NCBI RefSeq assembly: GCF_002000055.1
Contig: NZ_MVBD01000009.1
Span: 124,001-188,000 of the forward strand
Source of the DNA: Marinicella sediminis
GTDB lineage: Bacteria > Pseudomonadota > Gammaproteobacteria > Xanthomonadales > Marinicellaceae
Reading direction: 5' to 3'
Length of the DNA stretch: 64,000 nucleotides
A model generated the notes under the pieces. The model was not told where the DNA came from and did not search any database. It saw nothing but the letters and a program-made list of their open reading frames with translations. The position numbers and the translations under genes are program-made. Positions 46,709 to 63,918 of the stretch are shown piece by piece (position 1 is the first letter of the stretch; every line of letters begins with the position of its first letter).

Positions 46709-47590
46709 ATGTCCATCAGAACACAACAGGTATTTTTGATGACCGCATTGGTCTTTGGGTCGCATGCAGCACAGGCCCAGGTAAACCTCACCGAGGCAGA
46801 ACAATCGGTTGTTGATCATTATAAAAACATGCAAAGCATGGGTTCTGAAGAACGTAAAACCTACCGTGAACAACTGTTTTCCGGTATGAGCCGATCGGAA
46901 CAAAAAAGTTTTCAAGAAGCCTTTAAATCCATTCGCTCCCGCTTACCTGAATTGTTGGGCATTGAAGACACCGCCACTGAAACCAATAAAAACCAGGCCT
47001 CTGCAAACTCAGGGCAATCCGTTCGGGTTCCTGGTTCTGGCATTCAGTACGACTCGGGTAATACCACCGGAACCGCAGGTGTGGCCAGCCAAATGGTTGG
47101 AAACCGCTATGATACCGCCATTAACACGATGGGTACCGCTTGTTGTTCACCGGTCGAAACTTCTGGCACCATCACCATGGCCACCTTTGAAATGGTTAAT
47201 ACTTTCTTCGGATCGGCGGTATTCAGTGTTTATTCTAATGTGGTGGGTACAGGTGCTGTACAAGTGACTTCGATGGCATACCCAGGACTGATGACTGGAT
47301 TAAACACCATCACCCTTGGTGGCGGCGGCACAGCCAACGCCTATGCCAACGGCTCATTCCTGGCTGGTATTTGGCAGTTTGACCCAACCATGACTGCGAT
47401 TGGTGTCGATACCGGTACCACCGGCGGACAAGGCCATCACGGTATCAGCCTGAATGATGGCGCCATGGGCACCATGCTGACCAATTTAAACAGCCTGAAC
47501 GCCGTTATGCGCCTGCAGGGGAATCTGGTCACCGCTTCAGTTCCTGTTGAGCTGATCGACTTCACCATTGAAGAAGACCAGGATCAGTAA
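46709..47590 (+). CDS. Exported protein with PVEL-type C-terminus
   Basis: This 293-residue protein has a signal peptide (cleavage near AQAQVN), a charged helical segment (about 25-90, DHYKNMQSMGSEERKTYREQ) and a Gly/Thr-rich beta region. It ends in VPVELIDFTIEEDQDQ. The PVELxxF phrase is often found just before a fibronectin-like domain with TASExNNxGFxxYR; here the protein stops there, while a matching domain stands alone at 63568. The ribosome-binding site (GAAGGGGAAG) is good. It is the first gene of the cluster that runs to 63918. Function is unknown. Confidence 0.68.
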   Translation: MSIRTQQVFLMTALVFGSHAAQAQVNLTEAEQSVVDHYKNMQSMGSEERKTYREQLFSGMSRSEQKSFQEAFKSIRSRLPELLGIEDTATETNKNQASANSGQSVRVPGSGIQYDSGNTTGTAGVASQMVGNRYDTAINTMGTACCSPVETSGTITMATFEMVNTFFGSAVFSVYSNVVGTGAVQVTSMAYPGLMTGLNTITLGGGGTANAYANGSFLAGIWQFDPTMTAIGVDTGTTGGQGHHGISLNDGAMGTMLTNLNSLNAVMRLQGNLVTASVPVELIDFTIEEDQDQ

Positions 47591-47620
47591 CACTTTATCA
47601 ATCATTCAAGAACATCATTT

Positions 47621-49753
47621 ATGAAAACCAAATGGTTTATGAATTTGGTGTTTTTGGCTGCCTTTTTGATCATCACCGGGTGTGATGAACGCAGTCCGGA
47701 ACCCACCTTCAATGTACTGATTGTGACCTTTGACACCACCCGGGCTGATCACATCGGTACTTATGGCAAGTCAGATGCCCTGACCCCCAACCTTGATGAA
47801 TTGGCTTCAGATGGGGTGGTTTATGAGCGTGCCGTGACCCACATCCCGATCACCTTGCCATCTCACAGCAGTATGTTCACGGGGAAGGTGCCATTCACCC
47901 ATGGAGTCAGGGACAACGGACTGTTTTCTCTGGGACCGGAACAATTGACCTTGGCCGAAATCCTGAAAAACACTGGCTATGAAACCGGGGCAGCCATTGG
48001 TTCATTTCCCCTCACGTCTCAATTTGGCATTGATCAGGGTTTTGATTACTACAACGAACACATCACTCAGAAGTATGAAGATGTGCATGGTGAGCGCACC
48101 ATACCTAAACATCAGTTGTTTTTTGATGAGCGACCTGCCGGCGCAGTCAATGAAGCAATCATGCCGTGGATCAGGTACCACCACAACAAACCTTTCTTCG
48201 CCTGGCTGCACTATTTTGACCCCCACCATCCACATGAACCACCTGCACCCTATGATCAGTCATTCATCCATGATCTGTATTCCGGAGAAATTGCCTATTC
48301 GGATGAAGCGTTTGGGATGTTGATTGACCAGTTGAAACAATTGGGGGTCTATGACAACACACTCATTGTATTCACCTCTGATCATGGAGAAGGTAATGGA
48401 GAGCACAATGAAGCAACCCATTCATTGTTGATTTACAACGCCACCCAACATGTTCCGCTGATCATCAAGTACCCGAATCAGGAACATGCCGGAACCCGAA
48501 TCAAGCAATGGGTTGGCTTGGTGGATATTTTCCCCACAGTGCTGGATGTGCTAGGTCTTGAGGTACCTGAAGACATTCAAGGACAGGTGTTGGCACGTGC
48601 AGATCAGCCCGTTGATACCAACGCGGAGATATACCTGGAAACCCTCTCACCAAGGTTTTCCCGTGGTTGGGGTGAACAGCGGGGCATCATCAAAAACGAA
48701 CACAAATACATCCATGGCCCCCGCCAGGAACTCTATAACCTGATTGATGACCCCCGGGAATTGAACAACATCATCGATCAGCATCAAGCGCTGGCCAATA
48801 ACCTCAAGTCCGATTTGCAGGATTATTTGGATGAGTATCAAATCACTGGGATGAATGCCTCCATCAATGTGGACAGCCAAACCTTGAATACCCTCAGAGG
48901 TTTGGGATACGTTCAATCCAGTGGTGATATGGTTGATGTCATAGAAGAAAAACTGAGTGAAGCGGGTGATCCTCCACAAGATCATGTGGGCACCATCAGT
49001 ATTTATTCTCACGCCAAAAATTTATTATTCCAGGGCGAATACATTGAAGCCAACCGCTATTTACAATCTTTGTTGAATCTTGAGCCGGATAATCTGGCGT
49101 ATTTGGAATTGAAAATTCAAGCAGACATTCAATTGGGTGCTTTGGAGTCGGCAAAAAATCACCTTAAATCTTTGCCCAATGACCTGCATGGCACCTTATC
49201 ACCAGCTAAGCGCTTAAGCCTTTTGGGGCGCATCGCGTTGGCTCAAGGAGACCACAATTCCGCACAAAGACTTCTGGCTGATGCTGAAAACCTCGAACCC
49301 AGCATCAGTGGTCAATTACAGTTGGCCACAATTGCTGAGCAGAACAACCAATCGGAGCTGGCCCAAAAACACCTTGAACGGGCTTTAAGCCTCGAAGAAA
49401 ACAATGTAGAAGTGCTCAACACTCTGGCGATAAACCATTCAAAAAGAGGTGATTGGCTGGCAGCTGAACAATACTTCTCACAGGCCATTGAGCATCATCC
49501 TTACCATCAGTTAACTCATTACAATTACGGTGTTTTCTTATATGAAGTGGCCGATTATGAGTCTGCATTGAAAGCCTTTGAGCAAGCGATCCGTTTACAA
49601 GACAACTACCCCAAGGCCTTATTTGCCATCATCGAAACCCATATGGCCCTGGGACAACCTGCCAAAGCCCATCATTGGTATGACCATTTTGAAATGGTGA
49701 ATCCGAACCACACCTTGTTTGCCAAAGCGCAAAACCTGTTGGAAACTAAATGA
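47621..49753 (+). CDS. Sulfatase-fold lipoprotein with C-terminal TPRs
   Basis: This 710-residue predicted lipoprotein has its lipobox at IITGC, Cys21. Residues about 28-385 form an alkaline phosphatase/sulfatase fold: LIVTFDTTRADHIGTYG, then ITLPSHSSMFTGKVPFTHGV, IVFTSDHGEGNGEH. The position of the formylglycine Cys in true sulfatases is Thr78 (I-T-L-P-S-H), so sulfatase activity by the usual mechanism is unlikely; a Thr nucleophile is used by some phospho-transferases of this superfamily. TPRs fill about 460-700. The stop overlaps the start of the next PPIase gene by four bases, indicating one operon. Confidence 0.83.
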   Translation: MKTKWFMNLVFLAAFLIITGCDERSPEPTFNVLIVTFDTTRADHIGTYGKSDALTPNLDELASDGVVYERAVTHIPITLPSHSSMFTGKVPFTHGVRDNGLFSLGPEQLTLAEILKNTGYETGAAIGSFPLTSQFGIDQGFDYYNEHITQKYEDVHGERTIPKHQLFFDERPAGAVNEAIMPWIRYHHNKPFFAWLHYFDPHHPHEPPAPYDQSFIHDLYSGEIAYSDEAFGMLIDQLKQLGVYDNTLIVFTSDHGEGNGEHNEATHSLLIYNATQHVPLIIKYPNQEHAGTRIKQWVGLVDIFPTVLDVLGLEVPEDIQGQVLARADQPVDTNAEIYLETLSPRFSRGWGEQRGIIKNEHKYIHGPRQELYNLIDDPRELNNIIDQHQALANNLKSDLQDYLDEYQITGMNASINVDSQTLNTLRGLGYVQSSGDMVDVIEEKLSEAGDPPQDHVGTISIYSHAKNLLFQGEYIEANRYLQSLLNLEPDNLAYLELKIQADIQLGALESAKNHLKSLPNDLHGTLSPAKRLSLLGRIALAQGDHNSAQRLLADAENLEPSISGQLQLATIAEQNNQSELAQKHLERALSLEENNVEVLNTLAINHSKRGDWLAAEQYFSQAIEHHPYHQLTHYNYGVFLYEVADYESALKAFEQAIRLQDNYPKALFAIIETHMALGQPAKAHHWYDHFEMVNPNHTLFAKAQNLLETK

Positions 49754-51411
49754 AACAAATCATAATAATCTCCATGCTGTTTTTACTGAGTGCTTGTGGA
49801 ACACATGATCAAAAACGTCTGTCTGATGATGTCGTGTTGGCCAGTTCTCAAGAGCTGTCTGTGACATTGGCTGAATTACGTGAGCACATCACCGATTTAC
49901 CTGTTCATCTGCGATGGAACAGCGAACTGGATCCCCAGCAATGGTATGCTGATCAAATCAATTTGATCATGATTCAAAAGTTACTGCTCACAGAAGCGAA
50001 GTTGATCGGATATGAGCAAGATCCGAAATACCTCAACAAAGTCAGAAACCTGGAGCGTATGGTTTATTCAAGCCAATATTTGAATGAATTTCAGCCACCA
50101 CAAAAACCCAGTGAAGCGGAATTGAAAAATCATTATGAGGAACATTTGGATGAATTTGTGTTTCCCGAGTCCCGGCGGGTTTTTCACATATTTCAATCCC
50201 ATAAAGAGGGTGTGGAAACCACCAAACAACGCATGCAGTCATTGCGCAATCGACTGATAAAAGGGGAGAACATTCAGTTATTGGCCCCGGAATATTCTGA
50301 ATCAGAATCAAGACACAAAAAGGGATTGATTGGTTTGATCAAACAAGGGGATTTGTCTGCTGATTTTGATCGGGTGGTGTTCAAACTCAACATCAACCAA
50401 CCCAGCGAACTCATCAGAACTGCTGATGGGTACCACATTTTTGTGGTTTCAGAAGTGTTGCCTGCACAGTCTTACTCTTTTGAGTCCGTGCAGGGAATGA
50501 TCTTGCAGCGACTACAGGTTCAGCACACTTTGGCATTTATCCAGGAAAAGGCCGAATTACTGGAACCACCTGAACCATTTATGGTGCCTGATATGGATCA
50601 ACTGCAGCAATTGATGCGTCAGGGCAATCCGCAAGCACCTTTGATTCAAGTGGGCAACTATTCAAAGCCCATGGCACAGTTCATGTTTGAGATGAGGGAA
50701 ATGCAGGCTAAGATGGGCGCAGTACGCGACCCCCAAATGGGGCTGAAAATGCTGACAGAGACTGCTTATCGTGAGTGGATTTACCAACACATGCAAGCTG
50801 AACAAGCCACACCTGCACATCCTGATCGATTGGCCAAGGCCAAAGAGGACCTACTGATTGATGAATACAGGCCCGTAAAGTTACGGGCATACGTGAATCA
50901 AAATCCTCAATTATTGAATGACTACTTTGCGGGAAATGAGATGCGATTTTCAACACCCGTGATGGTTCAGTTGAAACGTTTGCAAATTCCCATCGAAGAG
51001 GGGATTAATTTGATGCCTGATCTAGAACAGTTGATCAGTCGACTGGATCTGGGTGAAGTTAAATTGGAAGAGGTGGCTGAGCAATACCAAGGCCAGGTTC
51101 AGCCCTTACCTCTGATGAATGCACAAAACCTGAAACGGATTGACCCAAGGATGCTCAGATTTGCTTTTTTGCTGAACCCTCAGGAACATACACCACCGTA
51201 CCGTACAGAGAACCATTACATTATCCTCAAACTCATTGAAAGGAAAGAAGCCAAAGTTCAGCCTTTGGCCACGATCAGAGATCAGGTGATGAATCAATTC
51301 ATTCGCTCTCATTCAGCTGATTTGTTTTCTCAGCTCAAAGAACAACTGCTCTCTGAAGTCAAAATCCATCGTACGCTGTTGAGTGATGTACACCTGTCAC
51401 TGCAACAGTGA
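49750..51411 (+). CDS. Parvulin-type peptidyl-prolyl isomerase lipoprotein
   Basis: This 553-residue predicted lipoprotein (lipobox LLSAC, Cys16) has a SurA/PpiC-like layout. A helical N-terminal chaperone part is followed by a parvulin domain at about 135-240 (RRVFHIFQSHKEGVETTKQR, RHKKGLIGLIKQGDLSADFD, SELIRTADGYHIFVVSE), and a second, more diverged parvulin-like region lies at about 395-500. Members help fold exported proteins and are often found in secretion or polysaccharide loci. It overlaps the sulfatase-like gene and is convergent with a similar gene, six bases apart. Confidence 0.85.
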   Translation: MKQIIIISMLFLLSACGTHDQKRLSDDVVLASSQELSVTLAELREHITDLPVHLRWNSELDPQQWYADQINLIMIQKLLLTEAKLIGYEQDPKYLNKVRNLERMVYSSQYLNEFQPPQKPSEAELKNHYEEHLDEFVFPESRRVFHIFQSHKEGVETTKQRMQSLRNRLIKGENIQLLAPEYSESESRHKKGLIGLIKQGDLSADFDRVVFKLNINQPSELIRTADGYHIFVVSEVLPAQSYSFESVQGMILQRLQVQHTLAFIQEKAELLEPPEPFMVPDMDQLQQLMRQGNPQAPLIQVGNYSKPMAQFMFEMREMQAKMGAVRDPQMGLKMLTETAYREWIYQHMQAEQATPAHPDRLAKAKEDLLIDEYRPVKLRAYVNQNPQLLNDYFAGNEMRFSTPVMVQLKRLQIPIEEGINLMPDLEQLISRLDLGEVKLEEVAEQYQGQVQPLPLMNAQNLKRIDPRMLRFAFLLNPQEHTPPYRTENHYIILKLIERKEAKVQPLATIRDQVMNQFIRSHSADLFSQLKEQLLSEVKIHRTLLSDVHLSLQQ

Positions 51412-51417
51412 ACGACA

Positions 51418-53055
51418 TCAATCCAGATAATAGGTGATGTCTTGTGCTTGCAGCAATTTGGTGGTGATCGCCGTTTTCAGTTGAGATTTTTGATTCGCCA
51501 ACAGTTCTTTGCGGATGATGCCTTGAGCTTCTGAAAACGTCATCAAACGATTAGCCTGAACATCATCCAATCGCAGGATCCACACATAACCTTGTTCAGT
51601 CTCAACCAAACCACTGTATTGGCCAGCATCAATTCTGAGCAGTGCCCGCATCAAATCAATCCCCAAAACCTGTCCCAGACGGTTTTTGCCTATGGTGCCA
51701 ATCAGACCATCTGGATAACGATCTGCAAATGCCGAATATTGATTGGCTGTGGTGGCAAAATCCACAGAGCCATGATTGATTTCATGCAGTAATTCAGCCG
51801 CTTTTTGATGCGCCAGAATTCGATTGCCATTAATAGCTATGGCCAAACCAGAAACGGTGTATTGAGCTGGTAAGACATATGAATCAGGGTGGTTTTGAAA
51901 CTGATCTTCGATGTCTTTAAGATGGGGTTCCGATAATTCCTTTGCGATCAATTGCCGGAGAATGTGTTCGGCCGAGCGTTGTGTCACCAAGGACTCACCT
52001 GCCAAAACCCATGAACTGCGGATATCAACACCGGTGGCATCAAACATGGCTCGCTTGATGGCGTAGGCTTCAATGCGCTGTCGATGTGACTGTTCGAATT
52101 CAGATTTCCAGGGTTTTTGTCGAAGATTCTGTCCCAACAACCAACCCAATTCCCTGGTATTGAGTCTCCATTGATTGGTGATCACTTGCGCTTCTGAATC
52201 GATCAGTTTCTCACCAGTTTTTGGCCATTTTATGTTCAGCTTCAATGCCGTCAGAAAATTGTTTTGCAGGAACTGCCATTGGGCATTGAATGCCTTGTTT
52301 TTGACCTGTTGGGTGGCACGTTTCATCAGTTTTTGATCACTTAATACCGAAGCTGATATGTGTCTTTCACAATAAAACAACATCACCCCATGACTGCTTT
52401 GAATGACTTCACTCATCTGATTGGGCTGCAGTTGCATCACCAATTCATCCAACTCAGCAGCCAGTAAGCCTGGAGGCACGTTACCGATCAATCCTTTTTG
52501 TAAGCGTGACTGTGAATCAGAATAATTGGTGGCGGCTGTTTTGAATCCATCGAGGTCATTTATCTGAGTTCGCAGGTCTGTCATCCAGTCCAACAATTCA
52601 CGTTTGTGTTTCGGGTCAGCATTTGGTGGATAACGTTTGAAAATTTGATACAAACGCAGTTTGGGCGGTCGTTTTGGACGGTTTTTTAATTCGTTAAAGC
52701 GTGCATTGATGGTAAGCGGATCTGGTTCAAGGACTTGTATCACCAATTGTTTATGGTGTTCAAACGCTTTCTGGTACAAAAACTCTTGGGCCTGAAAACG
52801 GATCTTATCTGCGTTGTCAGTTGAAAGGTGTTGATTGTGCTGTAATAAAACTTGTTCCAGAAAATACCCGTTGATGTAGCTTTTTATGTTCGCTGATCCG
52901 TTGAGGTTTCTTAATTTTGACCAGTGAGCAAAAGACTCAGCACTCAGCATGATGCTGCTATCATGGTTTTGGGCAATGAGTTTTGACGGCGGTTGCCGTT
53001 GGGTACAAGCAACTAACACCAAAGTGAATATGATTGTCAGATACAGTTTATTCAT
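51418..53055 (-). CDS. Second parvulin-type peptidyl-prolyl isomerase lipoprotein
   Basis: The ATG at 53055 places a lipoprotein signal (LVLVACTQ, Cys17) at the start; a longer frame adds six residues only. The product has 545 residues and two parvulin regions: about 130-240 (LRLYQIFKRYPPNADPKHKR, LQKGLIGNVPPGLLAAELDE) and about 400-510 (YPDGLIGTIGKNRLGQVLGI, YSGLVETEQGYVWILRLDD). It is similar in plan to the convergent gene at 49750. The C25 peptidase gene lies directly upstream, and their ends overlap by eight bases, so both are likely on one minus-strand transcript. Confidence 0.86.
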   Translation of the reverse strand: MNKLYLTIIFTLVLVACTQRQPPSKLIAQNHDSSIMLSAESFAHWSKLRNLNGSANIKSYINGYFLEQVLLQHNQHLSTDNADKIRFQAQEFLYQKAFEHHKQLVIQVLEPDPLTINARFNELKNRPKRPPKLRLYQIFKRYPPNADPKHKRELLDWMTDLRTQINDLDGFKTAATNYSDSQSRLQKGLIGNVPPGLLAAELDELVMQLQPNQMSEVIQSSHGVMLFYCERHISASVLSDQKLMKRATQQVKNKAFNAQWQFLQNNFLTALKLNIKWPKTGEKLIDSEAQVITNQWRLNTRELGWLLGQNLRQKPWKSEFEQSHRQRIEAYAIKRAMFDATGVDIRSSWVLAGESLVTQRSAEHILRQLIAKELSEPHLKDIEDQFQNHPDSYVLPAQYTVSGLAIAINGNRILAHQKAAELLHEINHGSVDFATTANQYSAFADRYPDGLIGTIGKNRLGQVLGIDLMRALLRIDAGQYSGLVETEQGYVWILRLDDVQANRLMTFSEAQGIIRKELLANQKSQLKTAITTKLLQAQDITYYLD

Positions 53056-55468
53056 AGAAGTTAATATATCCATAAAAGTTCAGTTCAAGCTTCTGGTCAT
53101 TGGCATAAACCCGAACCGTGGCTGTGTTGTTGATCAACGTCAATTGCAGCTGATTGGTTGTGGATTTGAAATGTTGTTCGGTTAAGAGTTGCCCAAGCGC
53201 ATCGAATTGTCTGACATGTATTTCGCCGCTGAACTGTTCATTGGGAATCGTTATGGCCAGTTCCTTGCTTTTCAAACTAAACTGAATCGTTTCATCCGGT
53301 GTGTTGAGCTTCAGGGATGGGTCACCAAGTACCACATAGGTATCGACAAAATGATTTCTGAGACCATTTGTTCTGGCCAGGTTCAGTGCTTCACCAATGG
53401 ATTGTTTTTGCAAGAGGGCATTGATTAAATCCTGACTGAATTTAATGGGCGGATAGTTGCGTGCGGATGAACCAATGATCGCCACTGAGCCATGATTGGG
53501 TTTTAACAACAACAACTCCGAAAATGAACTTGAATTGGGGTGGTCAAATGGGGCAGACGAGCAGGTCATGCTGAGTACCACTGGCCATTTATCATTATTC
53601 AACTGTTGAATGTGTGAGCGGTCAAACAGGACCGGTAATCGGGTTTCCGGGTGTTTCCCGATTTCCCACATATAACGACCACCATGTCCATAAAAATGTA
53701 CCAGGCCGAAACCGTCATTGATGGCATCAACAATGCTTTGGGCGCCATCCAACACATGCTTGTTCTCATCCAAGGTTCGTGAGATTTCGGTTTTTTCCAG
53801 GTTCAATCCAGAAATGATTCGGAGGTTCCTTTTCTGGTATAAATCTTCTGCTGGGGTGAGCATATTGAACCGGCTGTTCCACGCCCCGGGCTGACTGTCT
53901 TTGTGGTGATGTATTGTCTTGTGGATGATCGCATCAAGTTCATCCAAAGTATTGACTGGAAATCGACCAACTGCTACCGGGCTGGTTGAATGATCATCGA
54001 TCAAGGTATAAGGGGTGTCGCTGGCGGCAGGGCCATGGTCGGTGAATACCTGAAAGGTAGGCACCAGGTTGTTGTGGGCATGGGCAGGTATTTGGGGTAA
54101 ATAGCTCAGGGCATCCTGATGGGTGAACCAATTGCTGTCACCAACCAGTAATGTGAACTGCAGCTCCTTTGAACTGTTTTGTGCGACAAATTGTATGGCC
54201 CTTTTGATGGCTTGTGCACCAAGGTGTCCATGATCAAACCGATCATACACAGCCAATGAATCCCAGACCAGTACAGATTTCCCCTGACGCTCGTGCCATT
54301 GAATCAGTGGGGCCAGATTGGTCATAAAGGCAGGGTGACTGATGATGAGGTAGTCTGCCTGGATGTTGAGCGTTGATGGCTCAGCGGTTGGTCTGACCAG
54401 CTGTACCTCACGGATATCTTTGGTAGGCACATACACCACACTGCCATCTGACTGTAATTCATTGGGTGCCGATAACACCATGGGTTGACGGCCGGCCTGG
54501 ATTGTTGTGCGGTGCTGGTTTGACCAATAGATGTGGCCTGTGCTTCGGGGTTGAACCTCAATGGCGCCATCACCAACGACCTTCAATTGACGGTAATTAG
54601 TTAACACAACTGAATGCTGATGTTCCAACTCAATCCAATCCAGATACATCAGATCGATCACCGCTTGTCCACCCAATGTTCGGGGTGTGACAGAAAGTGA
54701 GAGTTCATTGTCTGAGTCGGTGAAACGCGAGGCATCAACTGTAAATTCAGCCAGGTGATGTACTTGCCCGTTCCACTTGGCCAATCCCAGTGTTTCACCG
54801 TTGAGATCCACAGTCAGTACATGGTCAAATTCAACTTCGGTCTTGGACTGTGTTGTGTTCCAGCCACGTAATTTAATGCGTATAGTGACTTGATGTGGTT
54901 TGGAACTGATTGATTGAAGAGCCAAAGGAATCCTGATTGGGGCTTGGGCGGCTGAACTCAACTTGTACCAATACCAGCTGGTCGTTGAATGTTCAGCATC
55001 ATTGGACGACAAAGGTGCTCTGACAAGGTTCTCTTCCAGGTGTTGTTTGAACAACAGGGGTGAATATTCACCTGAATTGAGTGGCGGATCAACCGATGAG
55101 GAATGGCCAATCTGGCCCGATTCGCCCAGAATAAGTCGATACACATTGATGATGGATACCGGATCAAACCATTCATTTTGACCGCGTTTGTGTTCACCGA
55201 TAAATTCAATGCTTTCACCAGGTTCCCAAATACCGTCTCCATCGTCATTGATCCAAATAGTTTGTGGTTCACCTTGGGCGGTTAAATTGATTTGATCAAA
55301 ACGAGGGGCTTGTTCCAAAGCTGTAATTTGATGATGATTGATCCGATAAACCCCATCGGCATTGACATACACGTTTAAACTGGAAACAGATGTAGCGGTC
55401 GACTCAGCAGCCGGTGCCGATAGGCCAAAGAGTAATCCAAAAATTGTGGTTAAGCGCACTGTGGGCAT
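53048..55468 (-). CDS. Exported C25 (gingipain-type) cysteine peptidase
   Basis: The 806-residue product starts at ATG 55468, with a signal peptide (cleavage near SAPAAES). A longer version from TTG 55489 is possible. The C-terminal half contains a caspase-like peptidase C25 fold, with the catalytic His595 in HFYGHGGRYMWEIG and Cys636 in LSMTCSSAPFDHP. The first 400 residues are beta-rich adhesion-like domains. In Bacteroidetes C25 members include gingipains and the PorU sortase; this protein has no type IX C-terminal domain that I can see. It overlaps the downstream PPIase gene by eight bases, suggesting the PPIase assists it or acts on the same substrates. Confidence 0.85.
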   Translation of the reverse strand: MPTVRLTTIFGLLFGLSAPAAESTATSVSSLNVYVNADGVYRINHHQITALEQAPRFDQINLTAQGEPQTIWINDDGDGIWEPGESIEFIGEHKRGQNEWFDPVSIINVYRLILGESGQIGHSSSVDPPLNSGEYSPLLFKQHLEENLVRAPLSSNDAEHSTTSWYWYKLSSAAQAPIRIPLALQSISSKPHQVTIRIKLRGWNTTQSKTEVEFDHVLTVDLNGETLGLAKWNGQVHHLAEFTVDASRFTDSDNELSLSVTPRTLGGQAVIDLMYLDWIELEHQHSVVLTNYRQLKVVGDGAIEVQPRSTGHIYWSNQHRTTIQAGRQPMVLSAPNELQSDGSVVYVPTKDIREVQLVRPTAEPSTLNIQADYLIISHPAFMTNLAPLIQWHERQGKSVLVWDSLAVYDRFDHGHLGAQAIKRAIQFVAQNSSKELQFTLLVGDSNWFTHQDALSYLPQIPAHAHNNLVPTFQVFTDHGPAASDTPYTLIDDHSTSPVAVGRFPVNTLDELDAIIHKTIHHHKDSQPGAWNSRFNMLTPAEDLYQKRNLRIISGLNLEKTEISRTLDENKHVLDGAQSIVDAINDGFGLVHFYGHGGRYMWEIGKHPETRLPVLFDRSHIQQLNNDKWPVVLSMTCSSAPFDHPNSSSFSELLLLKPNHGSVAIIGSSARNYPPIKFSQDLINALLQKQSIGEALNLARTNGLRNHFVDTYVVLGDPSLKLNTPDETIQFSLKSKELAITIPNEQFSGEIHVRQFDALGQLLTEQHFKSTTNQLQLTLINNTATVRVYANDQKLELNFYGYINFYE

Positions 55469-55469
55469 A

Positions 55470-55499
55470 AGAAAAAAAGGGGTAATCAAATTACCCCTT
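55470..55499 (-). terminator. Intrinsic terminator before the C25 peptidase gene
   Basis: On the minus strand, AAGGGGTAA pairs with its complement around a five-base loop and is followed by a T-run. It lies about 30 bases past the stop of the DUF11 gene and ends only one base before the ATG of the peptidase gene. Confidence 0.85.
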
Positions 55500-55527
55500 C
55501 AGATCAATTCTGTATCAAAGTTCAGTC

Positions 55528-57396
55528 TCAGTCATGGCGACTTCGCAATGATTTGAATCGCATCATCACTGTGGCAGCCATGAATAATGCCAGTAACATC
55601 AGTCCCAACAAGCTGGTGCTGGGCACTTGAATTGGGTTGCCAAATACAGTCAATATCAAGATGGCTGAAGATGTGGCTGCATAGTTGGCATCACCACTGT
55701 AAGAGGCTGTGAGGTTGCGATCGCCTGACTCGCTGATGACCAGAACACAGCTGGTGTCGGGCAGGGTGGCCACACAACTGAAAGTACCATCACTGATGGT
55801 GACTGTTCCGGTCGGCGGCAACACAGCAGGTGGCACAGGATCAATGGTGAATGTCACAGTGGTAGGTGCACTGTTTTGAACTGGGTTCGGGTTTGCAGAC
55901 ACAATGGCCAGTGTCACACTGCCGGTCACCACTTCATGAGGTTCTGCGCCCGAGGTCACTGGAGGGTTGGTGCCATCACCGGCATAGTCAGCCACCAAAG
56001 AGCGTGTGCCCACGGTGGTCAGATTAATCACACAACTGCCGGCAGCCACGGTGTCTACACAACTGTCCACACCATCTGAGACTGTGACATTACCGGTGGG
56101 CGCACTGCCTGTTACTGTATAAGCCACGGTCACTCCCTCGCCGACCGTTGAAGGGTCGGGGGTGGCACTGGTGATGGTGATGCTGGTGACATCTGTGGTT
56201 TCAGATGTGCTGTTGTTCCCAGCATTCGTGTCTGTCTCTGTGGCAGTGACAGAAGCGTTGTTGGTCAGTGTGCCTCCAGTACCCGGGTCAATGGAGACAA
56301 CCAGGTTGTATTGGGCCGATGATCCTGAAACAATGGTTCCCAATGTACAGGTGGGTACCGCAGCGGGATCTTCCGCACAACCGCTGGTTGAAACCAAAGT
56401 CATGCCTGCAGGCAAGGTGTCTGTCACCACCACGTTGGTGGCATCAGAAGGACCCGCGTTAGCAACATCAATGGTGTAAGTGACGTTGCCGCCAACAGCC
56501 ACTGGATCAACATCATCGGATTTGGTGATCGATAGGTCGATTTCAGGTTGAACCACAGTGTCTTCACTGGTGCTGTTGTTGCCAGGGGTGTTGTCAGTTG
56601 CATCTGAGGTCACAGAGGCATTGTTGGTGATCGTACCGGTAGTGGCATCAACCGTTACCTGAAGCGTGTATGAAGCGGAAGAACCAGCTGTGATGGTACC
56701 CAGACTACAGGTTGGGTTGCCATTGGGATCTTCTGCACATCCTGTGGTGGATACAAAGGTCACACCCCCAGGCAATGTGTCGGTGACCACCACGTTGGTG
56801 GCATCAGAAGGGCCGGCATTAGAAACATCAATGGTGTAAGTTAATGTGCCACCTGGGCTCACGGGGTCCACATCATCCACTTTGGTGATGCTTAAATCGG
56901 CTTCAATTCCAATCACGGTGTCTGAATCAGTGGCTGAGTTGTTGCCTGGGGCAGGGTCAGTGGTACCAACAGGTTCAGTGACGGTCACTGTGTTGCTCAG
57001 GCCACCAGCAGCTGCATTGCTGGGAATGTCGCACGTGGACGTGTAAGTGGCCGTACCAGCATTTAGCAAGTCGACCAGTGTGTCATTCAGGTTTCCTGCA
57101 ACAGGTCCTGTGGTACATGCTGAACCTGCTGAAGCCACACAGGTGGTCGAACAATTGGTCAGCGCAGCAGGAAAAGTATCTGCCACCGTTACACCAGTCA
57201 CATCATCCGGACCGTTGTTGGTCACCACCATGGTATAGGTCACGGATCCGCCAGCCACCGCAGCGGTCACGCCATCAGTTTTAGTAACGGATAAATCAGC
57301 AGTTGAACCACCTGCCTGAACAATCCCGGTAAACAGCGTTAACAAAATGAACACACTGATTGATTGCTTCTTAATGTTGATTGTGAATTCGACCAC
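55528..57396 (-). CDS. DUF11/Ig-repeat surface protein with sorting-like tail
   Basis: The GTG at 57396 is preferred: it has an excellent ribosome-binding site (CAGGGGGATCAA) and gives a signal peptide (ISVFILLTLFTGIVQAG), while longer frames do not. The 622-residue product holds three DUF11 repeats of about 120 residues (from about 33, 166 and 286; DLSITK...TDTLPAG), two Ig-like repeats (about 406-575, VTVSDG / VTISDGTFSC), and the tail VPSTSLLGLMLLALFMAATV plus basic FKSLRSR. This tail has the shape of the IPTL/PEP-CTERM type of cell-surface sorting signal. It is a likely client of the neighbouring enzymes. Confidence 0.86.
   Translation of the reverse strand: MVEFTINIKKQSISVFILLTLFTGIVQAGGSTADLSVTKTDGVTAAVAGGSVTYTMVVTNNGPDDVTGVTVADTFPAALTNCSTTCVASAGSACTTGPVAGNLNDTLVDLLNAGTATYTSTCDIPSNAAAGGLSNTVTVTEPVGTTDPAPGNNSATDSDTVIGIEADLSITKVDDVDPVSPGGTLTYTIDVSNAGPSDATNVVVTDTLPGGVTFVSTTGCAEDPNGNPTCSLGTITAGSSASYTLQVTVDATTGTITNNASVTSDATDNTPGNNSTSEDTVVQPEIDLSITKSDDVDPVAVGGNVTYTIDVANAGPSDATNVVVTDTLPAGMTLVSTSGCAEDPAAVPTCTLGTIVSGSSAQYNLVVSIDPGTGGTLTNNASVTATETDTNAGNNSTSETTDVTSITITSATPDPSTVGEGVTVAYTVTGSAPTGNVTVSDGVDSCVDTVAAGSCVINLTTVGTRSLVADYAGDGTNPPVTSGAEPHEVVTGSVTLAIVSANPNPVQNSAPTTVTFTIDPVPPAVLPPTGTVTISDGTFSCVATLPDTSCVLVISESGDRNLTASYSGDANYAATSSAILILTVFGNPIQVPSTSLLGLMLLALFMAATVMMRFKSLRSRHD
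56411..56840. repeat. Direct repeats within DUF11 coding region
   Basis: Two stretches 360 bases apart (56411-56480 and 56771-56840) are nearly identical and encode the same part of neighbouring DUF11 repeats, pointing to recent duplication or gene conversion. Confidence 0.75.
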
Positions 57397-57518
57397 TTGA
57401 TCCCCCTGATGAATGTTGAAATTATTAACAAAATGATAACTCAGTGTGGGTGAAATTTCTACTAAAAACATGATCTCAAAAGCATTTATGCGGCACAAAC
57501 AGGCCTTGGAATGTCCTT

Positions 57519-60500
57519 TCAAGAAGAACGAAATGATTGATTCAGTCTGCGGAGGGATTCAAGAGCAAAATTTGAGCCATTGTTTTGCATGTATTTGAGC
57601 CGTTCAAGCAAAGCCCTGAGGGTTTTTTGAGCGCTTGAATTGAGCGGGCCACTTTGATTGGCTATGCGTTTAAAATCGTACATCACAGCCACCAATACCT
57701 CTTGGTTTTCAAGCTCCAATGCCAGCTTGGCCCTGGTTTCTAATAAGTGCAAGCTTTGTCTGGCAGACAACAATTCATCCGTGAATGCCAATGCTTGTTG
57801 TAAATAATCGTGTTCACGACTTTGCAAGCGCCAATTTATGCGCAGTATTTTGGCCATGTCATACAACACATGATCGGCAGGAATCTGACCCAGTTGCTCA
57901 TCATGAGGTTTCACGGCGGTCCATTTCTGCAATCTTAACAAGCGCCAGTTTTCAAGCACCAGGCTGGTTAATTGATCGGTTTCGATGAGCGCCACAAGTG
58001 TTGGATTGCGTAATGACAAGACGGGTTCTTTGGCCATGAGAAATTGTCCGGCGGTCAGGGCATGGTTGGACGAACTGAGTGAGTTTAGCAATGTGGCTTT
58101 GGCCTGTTGTTTATCAACAAACACATACTGCATCATCGACATGCTCAATTGCTTGAGTTCTGAATTTTGCATCCGCTCAATCATGGCATTGAGGCGAATC
58201 ATTTGACCTTCTTTGATTAATCGATTGACCGCTGACAATGTCTGCGATGGCTCAAAATCGTCCAACCGCCAGTCATCATCGGCAAACAATCGATCAAATT
58301 CGGTTTTGGGTAACGACCGGCTGATGACCTTCGGGGATCGGATCTTCATCACATTGTGCTGATCAGTGGACAGTTCAGCACCATCAGAAAAAGATCGGCT
58401 TTGTGAGGCGTTCAATCGCCTGGAAAGCATCAGTTCCAGCCAGGAATTTACCCCCAGCAAACGCCATTCAGATAAATCCTGAGATCTGTTGAAGGTGTCC
58501 TCGCTGATGTTCAATGGCTCATTAGATGCCATAAAGAGCAGGCCACCCTGAGACAAGGGTTGATACAATTCCACGTGTCTAAACTCTGCATTCAATGTGG
58601 CCAGCAATGAGCGCAATAAATGCTGATCAACATAGCGCAAACCAATCCACTGAACAAACACACCTGACTGATTCAGCCTGGATTCTACCAGCGCAAAAAA
58701 TTCCCGGGTGTACAGGTTTGAAGCACCCGCCGTCCAGGGGTGAGACGGTTGGGATATCACCACATCAAATTGTTGCTGACTGTTTCTCAAAGCATTGCGG
58801 GCATCGTTGTGATGTAAGTGAAGCCGCGGATCAGCCAATGGATCTTCCCGGCGCCAGCTGGCCACGCTTTGATTGGCATGAATCACTTCTTCTTCCAGTT
58901 CAACCACATCAACCCTGCGAACGGTGTGGGGTACTGCCTGCAGGGTCAAACCAGCACCTAAACCAATGATCAACGCATCCTGGGTTTGCGGCCGGCTCAT
59001 CACCGGTAACTTCGAAAGCCACCAGGCCAGATGGTATTTGCTGATTCGGTCACCTGGGGCTTGCACAGAGGATTCAGGTAGGCCATTGGTCAGCAGACGT
59101 TTTTCATTGTTTTTATTTAGCATGATGACCGTGGCACTCTGACCAACGGCCAAGAAATCAATGTCAGCCGTTTGTTGTTTAACACCCAGCGGAGAATGAC
59201 TCAAGACCCGCAAAGGCTCTTGTATGGGGAGCACTGCCAGCAACACAATCAACAGACCGAGGATGGCTTTGGTGATGCCTGACTGATGCGATTTGTATGC
59301 CACGAAGCACCCTGCAAACAAACTCAGTATGGTGAGTATCCGGGCAGTGTCGGCAAAGCCAAATTGACTGAGTAACACGAATCCGCACAACAAGGCACCG
59401 CATATGGCTCCGGTGGTGTTCCAGGCGTAAATCCGTGCAGAAATGGCCGGTGCCTGTTTAAAATTTCTGGTACATATTTGAGTGGCCAAAGGAAACGTGG
59501 CGCCTATCAGTAAGGCACCTGGGAGCAGGGTCAAGGCACCCAAAAGCATGGCGCTGAAGACGAAAACAAGGCTGCCAAAATCTTGGTTGATGGGCAGCGC
59601 TGTCAGCTGATCGGCGAATGTGAAGCTGATGAAAAACATGGCTGCGATACCCACTTGAAGGCAGGTGAATCCCAACATTTTGTTATTGGCTTGAGTCAGC
59701 TTGAAGCCAATGATTGCTCCAAGTCCAATCCCCAGTAAAAACATGAACAGCATCACGCCAAAAGCGTACACACTGCCACCCAGCAGGTGACTCAGCAACC
59801 GGGTCCACATCACTTCATGAGAAAAAGACACCACCCCTGAGACAAACATGATGCCCAGCATCCATCGATGTTGCAGCTCAATATTGAATGGTCTGGTGCT
59901 GTCAGGGCTTTCGGATGACTGGGTCTGAAAAAACACGATTCCCAGGAAGAAGATGAACACATTGATGCCAACAGCGACATAGATGCTGTGCTGCAACCCA
60001 AAGTCCGGGATCAGCCAAAAAGCCGCCAGTAATGCACCGAGGCAAGCGCCCAAAGTATTGGTGGCGTACAAAAAACCGATGCCTGAACCAACGGTGCGGT
60101 CAGAGGTGATCACGTATTTACTGAGCAAAGGCAGGGTGGCCCCCATCAGGGCGGTGGGAATGATTAGCACTGCGAACGCCCCCAACACATAGATGGGTGC
60201 GTGCAGTTGATTGACGCTGGTCATCTCTTGTGTGCCAATAAACCAAGTGAACACGTGACCGCCAGCATCAATCAGGCCGGACATGCTCAGGGCGATGATG
60301 GCCAGCAACAATTCAAACAGCGCGTACCAGATGACCGGTCGTTTGACCCGATGAATCAGGCGTCCCATCAAATAGGCACCCAGTGCCAAACCACCCATGT
60401 AAGCCGCCAGGACCGCCGCAACAGCCACTTCGGTGCTGCCAAAAATGAGGGAAAACTGTTGTGACCAAATCACTTGATAAACCAGACCAGTCAGTCCGGA

Positions 60501-60542
60501 CAAAAAGAACAAGGTCATTAACAGCAGGTTTTTCAATGGCAT
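57519..60542 (-). CDS. Fused multi-pass membrane and spermidine synthase-like protein
   Basis: This 1007-residue protein starts with about 13 membrane segments (residues 5-430, MPLKNLLLMTLFFLSGLTGL). A spermidine synthase-fold domain (about 450-690) follows, with SAM-like nucleotide loop IIGLGAGLTLQAV, acidic strand DVVELEEEV and the loop VVISQPSHPWTAGASNLYTR, then a soluble helical C-terminus. In SpeE the loop holds two catalytic Asp; here Gln and His sit at those places, so polyamine synthesis is doubtful. Such fused proteins are common in bacteria and uncharacterised as far as I know. It precedes the DUF11 gene on the same strand. Confidence 0.87.
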   Translation of the reverse strand: MPLKNLLLMTLFFLSGLTGLVYQVIWSQQFSLIFGSTEVAVAAVLAAYMGGLALGAYLMGRLIHRVKRPVIWYALFELLLAIIALSMSGLIDAGGHVFTWFIGTQEMTSVNQLHAPIYVLGAFAVLIIPTALMGATLPLLSKYVITSDRTVGSGIGFLYATNTLGACLGALLAAFWLIPDFGLQHSIYVAVGINVFIFFLGIVFFQTQSSESPDSTRPFNIELQHRWMLGIMFVSGVVSFSHEVMWTRLLSHLLGGSVYAFGVMLFMFLLGIGLGAIIGFKLTQANNKMLGFTCLQVGIAAMFFISFTFADQLTALPINQDFGSLVFVFSAMLLGALTLLPGALLIGATFPLATQICTRNFKQAPAISARIYAWNTTGAICGALLCGFVLLSQFGFADTARILTILSLFAGCFVAYKSHQSGITKAILGLLIVLLAVLPIQEPLRVLSHSPLGVKQQTADIDFLAVGQSATVIMLNKNNEKRLLTNGLPESSVQAPGDRISKYHLAWWLSKLPVMSRPQTQDALIIGLGAGLTLQAVPHTVRRVDVVELEEEVIHANQSVASWRREDPLADPRLHLHHNDARNALRNSQQQFDVVISQPSHPWTAGASNLYTREFFALVESRLNQSGVFVQWIGLRYVDQHLLRSLLATLNAEFRHVELYQPLSQGGLLFMASNEPLNISEDTFNRSQDLSEWRLLGVNSWLELMLSRRLNASQSRSFSDGAELSTDQHNVMKIRSPKVISRSLPKTEFDRLFADDDWRLDDFEPSQTLSAVNRLIKEGQMIRLNAMIERMQNSELKQLSMSMMQYVFVDKQQAKATLLNSLSSSNHALTAGQFLMAKEPVLSLRNPTLVALIETDQLTSLVLENWRLLRLQKWTAVKPHDEQLGQIPADHVLYDMAKILRINWRLQSREHDYLQQALAFTDELLSARQSLHLLETRAKLALELENQEVLVAVMYDFKRIANQSGPLNSSAQKTLRALLERLKYMQNNGSNFALESLRRLNQSFRSS

Positions 60543-60991
60543 GTGATTGGATGTCTGAGAAATGGTATCAAGTTGTGTTATCGTGGCGATTATATGTTAA
60601 TTAACCCATGAGATGACTGTTAATCGACATCTGGTATCAAAGACCCGGGCTGAACACGCTCAAATCGATGTTGCATTGAATCATGAATGGCCATATTATT
60701 TAAACCTCAAGTTGGATTTAAACAGGCGAAATGTAAAGATGCAGCATTGATCAGTTGCCAGGCAAGCAGGTAATTAATGACCAACAGATCATTCAAATGA
60801 CTGAACCGAAGTTGAATTAATTTGGCTATAATGATACCGGTTTTTTTTAACCACAGTTCAGGGTGCTGGCTTGTGTTTTGTCGGGTGAATGATCCATGGT
60901 TAAAACAATCGGTTGTTCCAGGGATGGGTTGGATTAAATTTGTTAAATGTTGAATGCTGCGATCATTACCCATTGCCCCTTGAAAAATATC
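60543..60991. other. Divergent promoter region
   Basis: A 449-base region between two divergent genes. Perfect -10 boxes TATAAT are seen at 60589-60594 (minus strand, toward the fused membrane protein) and 60827-60832 (plus strand, toward the phosphatase-family gene), but neither has a clear -35 at normal spacing. No gene is supported here. Confidence 0.45.
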
Positions 60992-63571
60992 ATGAGTTTC
61001 AATCAGTCATTAATCGTTGCCTTTTTTGACATCAAGCAATTCATTCAACGGATCGTTTCATTGCTGTTGGTGATGCTTTTGATTGCTCAAACCAGTGGTG
61101 CCAGAACTGTGGTTTTGGGCTTTGATGGCATGGACCCACAGTTGTTACAGAACTGGATGGACTCTGGGGACTTGCCAAACTTTAAGGCACTTGCAGACAG
61201 CGGGCATTTTCAAGAATTGCAAACCACCAATCCCGCTCAATCCCCGGTGGCTTGGGCCTCGTTTGCTACCGGCTTGAACCCGGGCGGGCATGGCATCTTT
61301 GATTTTGTGCATCGAAATCCAGCAACCCAACAGGCAGATTATTCCATTTCCGGACTCAAGCCAGCCGGTCCGGATGAATGGTTCGGACTGCTTCATGTGC
61401 TGGGTCATCAACACACCTACAACAAAAGAATTGGTAAACCGTTCTGGATCACGGCCCAACAAAAAAACCTCAACAGCAGCATTCTGCGGGTTCCTGCCAC
61501 CTATCCACCTGATGACATCCACCGCATGTTCTCTGGCATGGGGGTACCTGATTTACTGGGCACCCAGGGCACATACAGTTACTACAGCACCAAATATGTG
61601 AATCCCGGCAGCGTGGGTGGTGAAGTTGTTCGGGTGTCAATTCAGAATAAAGCCATCGAAACAAGCATCAAAGGACCAGAAAATCCAGTGGGGGAAGGGC
61701 ATTTATCCGCGCCCATGACCATCACCAATCATGGCCCAAAACAGGTGAAAATAGAGTTGGGTGGTGAACAGATCATTTTGACAGAGGGTGCCTTTAGCGA
61801 ATGGATTCCGCTTGATTTTAAGTACTACCGGATTTTTGCAGTCAGTGGTATGGTTCGATTGCATTTGGTTGAGGCCTTTCCACGCTTCAAAATGTATGTT
61901 TCACCGATCCACATTGACCCCTCAAAACCTTTGGTGCCGATCGCTTCGCCAGCTGATTTCACCGCCATGATGTCTGAAAAAATGGGTTTGTTTCACACCC
62001 TGGGCATGCCTGAAGAAACCTGGTCGCTGAACGATGGTTTGATCAGTGATCAGGCTTTTTTAGAGGTGGTTGAAACGGTCCTTGCTGAGCGGGAAGCCAT
62101 GTTTTTTGATCAATTGGCGGATCCGGACAATGAGCTGGTGGTCTCTGTGTTTGTCCAAACTGATCGGGTCAGCCACATGTTCTGGAGACAGTTGGATCCG
62201 CTGCACCCTGCCCATGATGAACACGGGAACAGTGACAACCCGATTATGTGGATCTATCAGCAAGCCGACCGGATTCTGGGTAAAACCATGAAACAGCTCA
62301 AGGTGGATGATCGACTGATGGTGTTGAGTGATCACGGGTTTGCTCCCTATTACCGACATGCACACCTCAATCGCTGGTTGGAGCAGGCGGGTTACCTGAC
62401 CCTGAAAGAGGGGCACACAGATGCTTCATTTTCGCTGGAACACATCGACTGGTCACAAACCAGGGCTTATGCCATGGGTTTAAATGGTATCTACCTGAAC
62501 AAACAAGGTCGCGAAACAGCGGGCATTGTCACCGCAGATGAGGCGTCTGCTTTGACCGGTGAATTGAAGCGTGGTTTATCTGAGTGGTTTGATCCTGAGC
62601 GTGATCATGCTGTGGTGAGGAACGTGTTTGATCGTTCCGATATTTATCAGGGCATGAATCAGCAACTGGCACCCGATTTAATTCTGGGCTATGACCGTGG
62701 TTACCGGGCATCCTGGCAAACTGTGCTGGGAGGTGCTCCAGATGAGTTGTTGTCAGACAACACCGATAAATGGAGTGGTGATCATTGCATCGATCCGGCC
62801 TTGGTACCTGGGATACTGCTGACCAATTTTCCGGTGACTGATGTCCAATCGATTGAACAGATGGCCGAACTGGCCTCCCGGCCACACAAGCAAACCCCTT
62901 TCAGGGTGTTGGATTATCCCGGTGGGTGGTTGGATGTTCCCAGAGATTTCAGCCATGCTGTGTTCAAGCAATTGGCGGGTTTGGGGTATGCCAATGTGTC
63001 CTGGCTGTTGGCTGGTGTGCTGGTATATGGTCTGTTTGTGTTGACTAGTCGAATGGCCGGCACAATGCACCACAAAAAAAAGGCAGTGGCTGTTACGATC
63101 TGGGTGGTTTGGGTGTTGTTGATCACCGCCCACGTCCATGGCGTTTGGATGGCGTCATCAGAAATAAGTCGTGAGTCTTCCACCGAGCTGAACTTGGCTG
63201 TGGTGCCGAAAAACACAGTCTCCACACCTACGGTACAATGGCAAAACACCAGACAAAACATCATCGGCTATAAGCCCAAATTGACACAACCCAATCAATG
63301 GCAAATCGACGTTGATGACCGTTCACTGCAGTTGGTGGAAACCGATGGCTATGTGTTGTGGCATGCCAATTTGGAGCATCCTTTATTGGGACTGGTTGCC
63401 CACCAATGGTGGCATCGTTGGCTGTCACATCCTGGTGGTTATGTGGATCCGGCCGGTCAAATCCGAGCCATTAAACTTTTTCACCCGATCCCGAACAGGT
63501 GGTGGATGTGGCTGTTGTTGGGCTTGTTGGTGTCCATAATTTTGAATCGTTTTGTGTTGAGGAAATCATGA
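60992..63571 (+). CDS. Alkaline-phosphatase-superfamily membrane enzyme
   Basis: The ATG at 60992 is chosen for its short N-terminus before the membrane segment; 60947 is also possible. The 859-residue product belongs to the type I phosphodiesterase/nucleotide pyrophosphatase group: metal site VVLGFDGMDPQLL (Asp45), nucleophile region PAQSPVAWASFATG (Ser84 probable), FVQTDRVSHMFWRQLDP and LMVLSDHGFAPYYRHAHL. Three hydrophobic helices near the C-terminus (about 675-865) anchor it, so the enzyme domain is likely periplasmic. The substrate is unknown. Its stop overlaps the start of the small lipoprotein gene by four bases. Confidence 0.87.
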   Translation: MSFNQSLIVAFFDIKQFIQRIVSLLLVMLLIAQTSGARTVVLGFDGMDPQLLQNWMDSGDLPNFKALADSGHFQELQTTNPAQSPVAWASFATGLNPGGHGIFDFVHRNPATQQADYSISGLKPAGPDEWFGLLHVLGHQHTYNKRIGKPFWITAQQKNLNSSILRVPATYPPDDIHRMFSGMGVPDLLGTQGTYSYYSTKYVNPGSVGGEVVRVSIQNKAIETSIKGPENPVGEGHLSAPMTITNHGPKQVKIELGGEQIILTEGAFSEWIPLDFKYYRIFAVSGMVRLHLVEAFPRFKMYVSPIHIDPSKPLVPIASPADFTAMMSEKMGLFHTLGMPEETWSLNDGLISDQAFLEVVETVLAEREAMFFDQLADPDNELVVSVFVQTDRVSHMFWRQLDPLHPAHDEHGNSDNPIMWIYQQADRILGKTMKQLKVDDRLMVLSDHGFAPYYRHAHLNRWLEQAGYLTLKEGHTDASFSLEHIDWSQTRAYAMGLNGIYLNKQGRETAGIVTADEASALTGELKRGLSEWFDPERDHAVVRNVFDRSDIYQGMNQQLAPDLILGYDRGYRASWQTVLGGAPDELLSDNTDKWSGDHCIDPALVPGILLTNFPVTDVQSIEQMAELASRPHKQTPFRVLDYPGGWLDVPRDFSHAVFKQLAGLGYANVSWLLAGVLVYGLFVLTSRMAGTMHHKKKAVAVTIWVVWVLLITAHVHGVWMASSEISRESSTELNLAVVPKNTVSTPTVQWQNTRQNIIGYKPKLTQPNQWQIDVDDRSLQLVETDGYVLWHANLEHPLLGLVAHQWWHRWLSHPGGYVDPAGQIRAIKLFHPIPNRWWMWLLLGLLVSIILNRFVLRKS

Positions 63572-63918
63572 AGGGTCATGGGCGTCTGCTGGGTTTATTG
63601 TGTGTTTTGTTGTTATCGCTGGTGGCTTGTGCCCAGAAGCATTCAGCGTTTACCCTCAAGTGGAAAACCGCCAGTGAAGTGAATAATCTGGGCTACAATG
63701 TGTATCGTGCCGAGCTGGAGGCCGGGCCATTCAAACAAATTAATTCGCAAATCATTCAGGGTGCAGGGACCACTGATCTGATCAGCCAGTACTCTTACAC
63801 CGACGAGACTGTCAGAAAAAGGCAGGTTTATTATTATTACATTGAAAGTGTTTCCGAGAACGGTCAAAAGAAACGCTTCACACCCGTGCTTAAGTCCAAC
63901 GCTAAAAATTCGCCATAG
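63568..63918 (+). CDS. Small fibronectin-like lipoprotein
   Basis: The ATG at 63568 overlaps the previous stop, and gives a lipoprotein signal (LLLSLVACAQ, Cys21). The 116-residue product is little more than one fibronectin type III-like module with the pattern TLKWKTASEVNNLGYNVYR and VYYYYIESVSENGQKKRFTP. This is the module usually found after a PVELxxF phrase in larger exported proteins. Translational coupling with the phosphatase-family enzyme suggests a shared role, perhaps as a periplasmic partner. Function is unknown. Confidence 0.8.
   Translation: MKGHGRLLGLLCVLLLSLVACAQKHSAFTLKWKTASEVNNLGYNVYRAELEAGPFKQINSQIIQGAGTTDLISQYSYTDETVRKRQVYYYYIESVSENGQKKRFTPVLKSNAKNSP

Follow-up and report, generated by a model that had tools for sequence, protein, structure and literature searches.

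A short C25 peptidase, a small lipoprotein and a C-terminal PVEL tail as a probable system for handling exported proteins in Marinicella sediminis and other bacteria

A 64,000-nucleotide stretch of the Marinicella sediminis genome (contig NZ_MVBD01000009.1, hereafter the window) contains a cassette of nine genes, A to I (Table 1), that includes a short C25 cysteine peptidase (E), a small lipoprotein (I), and an exported protein (A) with a distinctive C-terminal tail, PVELxxFxV[D/E]. The short peptidase and the lipoprotein occur in an identical set of 19 of 250 genomes of the order, and in the order genomes scanned the tail family is found only where both are present; it is very probable that E, I and the tail form one system. 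The lipoprotein is predicted to be a fibronectin-III (Fn3) type domain that lacks its first strand, strand A, and the tail resembles that strand. From this likeness and the strand gap in the modeled I, we put at slightly better than even (roughly 0.55) the probability that the tail docks into I.

To our knowledge, few signals are known for finishing and placing bacterial surface proteins, and most of them end in a membrane segment. If the docking reading is correct, surface proteins would be processed or anchored in several phyla by a route not described before. Surface proteins of relatives and of acidobacteria could then be predicted by a simple rule, PorU-type chemistry would reach outside Bacteroidota, and a short tag that can be genetically encoded would become available for display. 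Searches of Creative Commons-licensed PMC text brought up no description of the tail among the entries listed, as far as listings and the beginnings of abstracts reveal.

A C-terminal tail on exported proteins

The tail stands at the extreme C-terminus of exported proteins, and was first sighted in gene neighbourhoods, where 10 of 3466 frames had a PVEL-like ending as against none in a scrambled control. Eight of the ten endings belong to exported proteins encoded near E (L032, L033 twice, L034, L043, L054 twice, and L057), and the remaining two, in L062 and L123, were judged spurious. For the genome-wide search, PVE[LF]xx[FY] was turned into a degenerate DNA pattern, the letters at the sites were then read, and a tail was counted where the frame ended no more than 20 residues on, was longer than 100 residues (or was cut by the locus start), and read PVE[LF]xx[FY]x[VIAL]. 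The end of glutamine synthetase, PVEFDMYYS, was a recurrent false positive, four sites of which were excluded from the count, and a PVELLEY ending in an 83-residue frame of G036 (L147) was excluded by the length rule.

Sixty-one tails were read in this way, 48 of them exactly ten residues long, with F (55 tails) or Y (6) at position 7, mostly V (34) or I (25) at position 9, and most often D (25) or E (22) at position 10. Once tail and signal are removed, 60 of the proteins that carry them, here called clients, fall into 46 BLAST groups; this count omits one tail, whose frame has 17 residues and lies at the end of a contig. Pfam scans of ten clients returned CAP, FG-GAP_2, beta-helix, beta-propeller, lamin-tail, and FTP/M36 matches, with three of the ten giving no match, and 44 of the 60 clients pass a crude signal-peptide check, some of the failures being truncated where a contig or locus ends. 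Scans of 16 clients (15 PVEL, one PVQL) listed no NCBIfam tail model.

In the window's genome, G000, the genome-wide pattern found a single client, A, which matched no family in scans of the Pfam and NCBIfam libraries. The first-pass annotation of this DNA had listed the "PVEL-type" protein merely as a client, and it is the tail of this protein that proves to be linked to the C25 peptidase. A and I were at first suspected of forming a pair of their own, since in G000 and G019 the pattern matched no more often than its control did, and this idea was dropped when the letters read in G036, G100, G034, and G041 revealed more clients.

Co-occurrence of the peptidase, the lipoprotein and the tail

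Profiles of E and I were run over 250 genomes of the order. At a threshold of 1e-60 the E profile reached 22 genomes, 19 with the short type (above 690 bits) and four with matches of 217-238 bits to long proteins, G180 having both. The I profile, at 1e-5, reached 24 genomes, 19 of which match strongly (above 120 bits) and five only weakly (below 34 bits), inside long frames. Short E and strong I mark the same 19 genomes (G000, G019, G025, G030, G034, G036, G040, G041, G043, G045, G054, G060, G100, G104, G126, G158, G176, G180, and G213), which span seven families (f1, f3, f5, f8, f9, f10, and f12), several of which also hold members with neither gene.

All eight of the E-carrying order genomes that were scanned have at least one tail. 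Expressed as tails per pattern site, the counts are 1/8 in G000, 1/5 in G019, 1/4 in G034, 5/11 in G036, 1/10 read (of 11) in G040, 34/45 in G041, 1/10 in G043, and 3/14 in G100. Outside the order, tails were found at nine of 12 sites read (of 16) in an acidobacterial genome (G250, L279) and at five of 12 sites read (of 32) in a deltaproteobacterial one (G252, L259). Seven order genomes without the E/I pair, sister genera included, had a tail at none of 31 sites (G003 0/5, G021 0/3, G046 0/3, G047 0/11, G049 0/4, G050 0/3, and G052 0/2); G003 shares the genus of the window's genome, and G021 that of G019.

From named genomes, 80 of 121 confirmed I relatives were kept, some of them already among the order genomes, and 37 of these 80 loci are shorter than 20 kb. 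An E-type match, defined as more than 120 bits on the E alignment profile, lies in 44 of the 80 loci, and with phyla assigned from record titles these include 24 of 28 acidobacterial loci, both deltaproteobacterial loci, and 17 of 47 gamma- or other proteobacterial loci, which are about 20 kb or less and in many cases cut by contig ends. The single BRC1 and the single Poribacteria loci gave no E-type match. The E and I frames, taken from stop to stop, lie on the same strand within 300 bp of each other in 27 of the 80 loci, 19 of them acidobacterial (19 of 28). A search of named genomes with E alone returned four pattern stretches and no relative. One of the 44 loci carrying both E and I (L265, CAMBFS010000167.1) is titled Klebsiella pneumoniae, and is probably a mislabelled or contaminated metagenome bin.

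The conserved core thus consists of E, I, and the PVEL tail, in which the small lipoprotein, placed near the end of the list in the first-pass annotation, emerges as a key partner; the repeat protein F is a neighbour rather than a part of the core.

A predicted fibronectin-III domain that lacks strand A

In Pfam and NCBIfam, I reaches the cut-off of no family, and among PDB chains its profile finds the Fn3-like 3mpc, with a match that begins only at chain residue 21 (E-value 0.0033). An AlphaFold2 model of the window's I from the lipidated Cys onwards, based on an alignment of 17 sequences in which the others were trimmed to about 14 residues before a conserved Trp, has a predicted local distance difference test (pLDDT) score of 85.1, and 69 across its first ten residues. 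In this model of an approximately 96-residue domain, the first strand (residues 6-14, SAFTLKWKT) contains the Trp of strand B. Foldseek matches the model to many Fn3 chains at a probability of 1.00.

In relatives, long C25 proteins have a related Fn3-like domain in the same chain, upstream of C25, and it is preceded by segments such as PITLKSFEA, PVTLSWFSA, PVTLSSFQA, and PVTLSYFEA; P[VI]TLxxFxA forms strand A of this domain. The model of the single-chain domain (pLDDT 85.8, 6 sequences) has an extra strand at residues 7-15 (LKSFEATQL), on PITLKSFEATQL, ahead of strand B. VIA-align placed both models on Fn3 domains, with Z up to 9.8 for I and 8.9 for the single-chain domain. Eleven PDB entries were listed for the two models alike, and in every one of them the match to the I model begins 9-16 chain residues further on (at 17 versus 3 in 3mpc, 19 versus 3 in 4o00, 19 versus 3 in 8os3, and 17 versus 3 in 8omw, among others), with a few entries listed for I alone starting earlier in the chain (4m6a, 11). 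The tail-like segment is therefore strand A of the domain, and I, whose model starts later and has strand B as its first strand, is predicted to be an Fn3-type domain without strand A.

I is a lipoprotein in the window and in several relatives, and apparently soluble in others. A weaker I-like domain lies inside frames of 461-510 residues in G060, G126, G158, and G213 (L107-L110), one of them preceded by RPVEMPVPEG. A weak match of I to the model of the PorU long-form N-terminal part (15.9 bits against a cut-off of 40, residues 10-45) takes in much of the signal peptide and was not used.

The short C25 peptidase and its long relatives

E matches the C25 family PF01364 at 212.1 bits (cut-off 23), and in an alignment with 1cvr and 6za2 its GHGG (His602) and MTC (Cys643) motifs fall on GHGS/GHGG and a Cys of these gingipain/PorU structures. 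His602 and Cys643 are invariant across six aligned homologues, and we take them to be the catalytic dyad. The C-terminal part of E is about 75 residues long. The nearest relative of E is PorU, both among solved structures (6za2, E-value 2.4e-33 with a profile) and among NCBIfam models. The window's genome has one C25 gene, and full-length homologues of E are scattered among a set of 61 genomes (the window's included).

Sister genera often have the long C25 proteins to which an Fn3-like domain is fused (L103, L014, L015, L018, L019, L021, L022, L024, and L029), with up to eight C25-matching stretches per genome. These proteins were considered as members of the system and rejected, because none of the sites read in G021 and G046, whose only C25 genes are of the long type, is a PVEL tail; the E/I pair does not track these genes.

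A proposed mechanism and its alternatives

We infer a scheme in which clients are exported by Sec as proteins of unrelated folds whose last residues, PVELxxFxV[D/E], would correspond to the first beta-strand of an Fn3-like domain. I would be the same type of domain with an open edge in the place of strand A, into which the client tail would dock by strand complementation, completing the domain in trans, and the membrane-anchored I would thus present the client to E. Since E is a relative of PorU and the gingipains, it would most likely cleave the client close to the tail, transfer it, or both; alternatively, I may merely hold the client at the surface without a cut. The parvulins C and D would help to fold clients, and fit slow-folding exported proteins whose tag begins with a proline. 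B and H, both enzymes of the alkaline-phosphatase superfamily, and G, a membrane protein whose fused domain is of a SAM-binding type, may provide an acceptor or modify it, the making or trimming of a lipid acceptor being a guess.

Several observations weigh against the docking reading. The search pattern sees only PVE[LF]xx[FY], five of the eight scanned E-carrying order genomes have just one tail, and for ten of the 11 (of 19) that lay outside the genome-wide scan the fetched neighbourhoods show no tail. Luminiphilus (G251, L327) has both E and I, with a tail at none of six pattern sites, and I is often far from E in Gammaproteobacteria. The genomes compared include relatives, and so are not independent. 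As for the domain itself, Foldseek found no match to I at an E-value of 0.001 or below (best 0.011), and in several species, G041 with its 34 clients included, about 30 residues lie between the signal peptide and strand B of I; this extension, which was trimmed from the folded alignment, could fill the strand gap in cis.

Of the alternatives, the one that survives best holds that the tail is a signal cut or transferred by E, and that I is an accessory subunit of E rather than a binder of the tail, completing its own first strand or needing none. The adjacency and strict co-occurrence of E and I are as expected of a peptidase subunit, the related domain fused to C25 in the long homologues would make I a detached form of it, and the N-terminal extension is frequent in I homologues. 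Yet the tail resembles the very strand that is missing in I (PVELQSFSVE compared with PVTLSSFQAL or PITLKSFEAT), and the long C25 proteins retain strand A, and this alternative is on balance unlikely, if deserving of serious weight. It is quite improbable that the tail is a folding or stability remnant, left after loss of the downstream part of a domain and without a receptor, its co-occurrence with E and I being historical. Although the tail does look like a strand of a common domain, it lies at the very end of proteins in 46 BLAST groups, mostly at exact length, and one genome (G041) has 34 such tails.

The first-pass annotation proposed instead that the gene set acts on proteins with a VPST-transmembrane-basic tail, as in F, and suggested a check of co-occurrence with exosortases. 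By its sequence the VPST tail of F appears to be a degenerate IPTL-CTERM: the NCBIfam IPTL-CTERM scores are 9.9 for the window's F and 12.5 and 17.6 for orthologues (cut-off 20.5; the G019 orthologue was not listed), and on the Pfam IPTL-CTERM model (cut-off 20.8) the G040 and G176 orthologues reach 21.8 and 16.6. Most likely this is a tail for the exosortase XrtH, with F a probable XrtH client; XrtH is encoded on another contig of the window's genome (G000:C34, 163 bits versus a cut-off of 86). XrtH sorting with the C25 peptidase as a helper would explain why F adjoins E in the window, G019, G040, G176, and G180, why IPTL-like tails occur on the G040 and G176 orthologues, and why all 12 of the E-carrying genomes among the 61 relatives have XrtH. 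However, XrtH is matched in 56 of the 61 (55 above the cut-off) and the short C25 gene in only 12; XrtH occurs in 16 of 17 other members of the genus, with a fragment below the cut-off in the seventeenth, and none of these has this C25 gene. Moreover, only one of the 80 named I loci has an F homologue. This explanation is thus very improbable, and the VPST tail, apparently a weak IPTL-CTERM whose exosortase XrtH is present with or without the C25 gene, was rejected as a C25-linked signal. Finally, to a type IX reading, be it of a secretion system or of its remnant, we give next to no credence, for although PorU is the closest relative of E, E scores 172.7 against a cut-off of 420 on the PorU model (NF033707) and no type IX C-terminal model was listed for the 16 tail proteins scanned (a search for SprA, PF14349, was negative in all 22 genomes, but its controls were equally silent).

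Returning to docking of the tail into I, a more specific version can be offered tentatively, in which the client strand and the lipoprotein remainder form a split beta-sandwich tag that would license E, as a PorU-like transpeptidase, to join the client to an acceptor made or modified by G, H, or B. Transpeptidation by E is itself a doubtful step. Also tentative is the suggestion that this tag, on clients across Gammaproteobacteria, Deltaproteobacteria, and Acidobacteriota, could correspond, in a split and simpler form and outside Bacteroidota, to the type IX sorting signal.

Relation to known systems

The PorU/type IX system of Bacteroidota has a C25-family enzyme with which E shares its PorU-like N-terminal part, and a C-terminal beta-sandwich signal on many secreted proteins. 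Unlike the type IX signal, a PVEL client keeps only a ten-residue strand, and the rest of the sandwich would be a separate lipoprotein; the score of E below the PorU cut-off, the lack of a type IX C-terminal model on the clients scanned, and the phyla involved are further differences. PEP-CTERM, IPTL-CTERM, GlyGly-CTERM, and MYXO-CTERM systems likewise have a short C-terminal signal on many proteins and a dedicated protease, and phylogenetic profiling similar to that applied here was used in their study. In contrast to these signals, the PVEL tail has neither a transmembrane segment nor a basic end, and the protease is a C25 enzyme rather than an integral membrane exosortase, a rhombosortase, or a CAAX-type protease.

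In the donor-strand complementation of chaperone-usher pili, a short strand of one protein completes an incomplete Ig-like domain of another, as the PVEL tail would do, but here many exported proteins would donate the strand as their C-terminal tail, and a peptidase-linked lipoprotein would accept it. The long C25 proteins of the same order resemble the system in having a related Fn3-like domain upstream of C25, and differ in that strand A is part of the same chain and that G021 and G046 are without PVEL tails at the sites read.

Composition and conservation of the cassette

All nine genes listed in the first-pass annotation are present (Table 1), and the set does point, as proposed there, to the handling of exported proteins. 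Gene overlaps of 4-8 bases had also been reported. Those of B/C (49750-49753) and H/I (63568-63571) are 4-base ATGA overlaps; that of D and E is 8 bases when counted from the next ATG of D and 26 from its listed start, and an overlap of F and G requires an implausibly early TTG as the start of F. A GTG start of I at 63499 is probably too early.

Table 1. Genes of the cassette at positions 46709-63918 of the window, with the C-terminal tail of A
Feature	Position	Strand	Description
A	46709..47590	+	exported protein, 293 residues; homologues in G019, G040, G041, G176
Tail of A, PVELIDFTIEEDQDQ	47543..47587	+	ten-residue core PVELIDFTIE at 47543-47572
B	47621..49753	+	sulfatase-fold lipoprotein (Sulfatase match) with C-terminal TPRs
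C	49750..51411	+	parvulin lipoprotein; two matched rotamase stretches
D	51418..53073	-	second double-parvulin lipoprotein; two matched rotamase stretches
E	53048..55489	-	short C25 peptidase; PorU-like N-terminal part; PF01364
F	55528..57522	-	DUF11 and Big_3_5 repeat protein with an apparently degenerate IPTL-CTERM tail (by sequence); start codon uncertain
G	57519..60542	-	membrane protein fused to spermidine-synthase-like domain
H	60947..63571	+	alkaline-phosphatase-superfamily membrane enzyme; Phosphodiest 124 bits
I	63568..63918	+	small lipoprotein; predicted Fn3 domain without strand A

The cassette is almost certainly conserved. The first-pass annotation had made its grouping depend on homologues being found together elsewhere, and G019 holds homologues of all nine genes inside about 20 kb, which shows that the grouping is not due to chance. 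Around this short C25 peptidase, subsets of the genes also recur in other members of the order, as well as in acidobacteria and a deltaproteobacterium. Within the order, the neighbourhoods contain E, C, B, G, I, and H in G036; E, F, B, C, A, a second parvulin, and I in G040; E, A, two parvulins, and B in G041; E, F, B, C, and A in G176; and B, F, and E in G180. E stands with I in G100, where G is also present, and in G104, where H is, and the remaining E genes of the order have I at a distance or none of the set within the fetched stretch.

E lies beside B-profile matches of 172-223 bits in L259, L260, and L319 (L264 was left out, its B and E frames overlapping on opposite strands), and an acidobacterial locus, L283, has a G homologue of 1042 bits. 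Over the 80 named I loci, matches are few, B exceeding 100 bits in seven, C in four, and D in two, and G exceeding 200 bits in three and H in two, so that these genes are occasional neighbours outside the window's relatives and not core.

B has Thr at the usual nucleophile position (TLPSH), and a simple expression for T[LA]PSH matched four of six B sequences examined. G matches the MFS_SpdSyn subfamily at 131 bits (cut-off 40) and falls under the SpeE equivalog cut-offs (NF002010, 81.8 versus 260; TIGR00417, 69.5 versus 249.6), and it may not make polyamines, because the window's G reads QPSHP in place of the acidic motif usual in true synthases.

Immediately before A, at 45545-46541, lie two fragments, one PLD-like (PLDc_2, 82.6 bits) and the other from an IS110-type transposase (27.7 bits, slightly below the cut-off of 29), so that the cassette appears to be bordered by decayed mobile DNA. 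Elsewhere in the window, a different kind of recurring tail (FANGFD; VFKDGFESGDTTAWFATCP) is found on two exported proteins without a Pfam family (23233-24411 and 24515-25747), and a DGFESGDTxxW ending, familiar from relatives, may be a further C-terminal signal.

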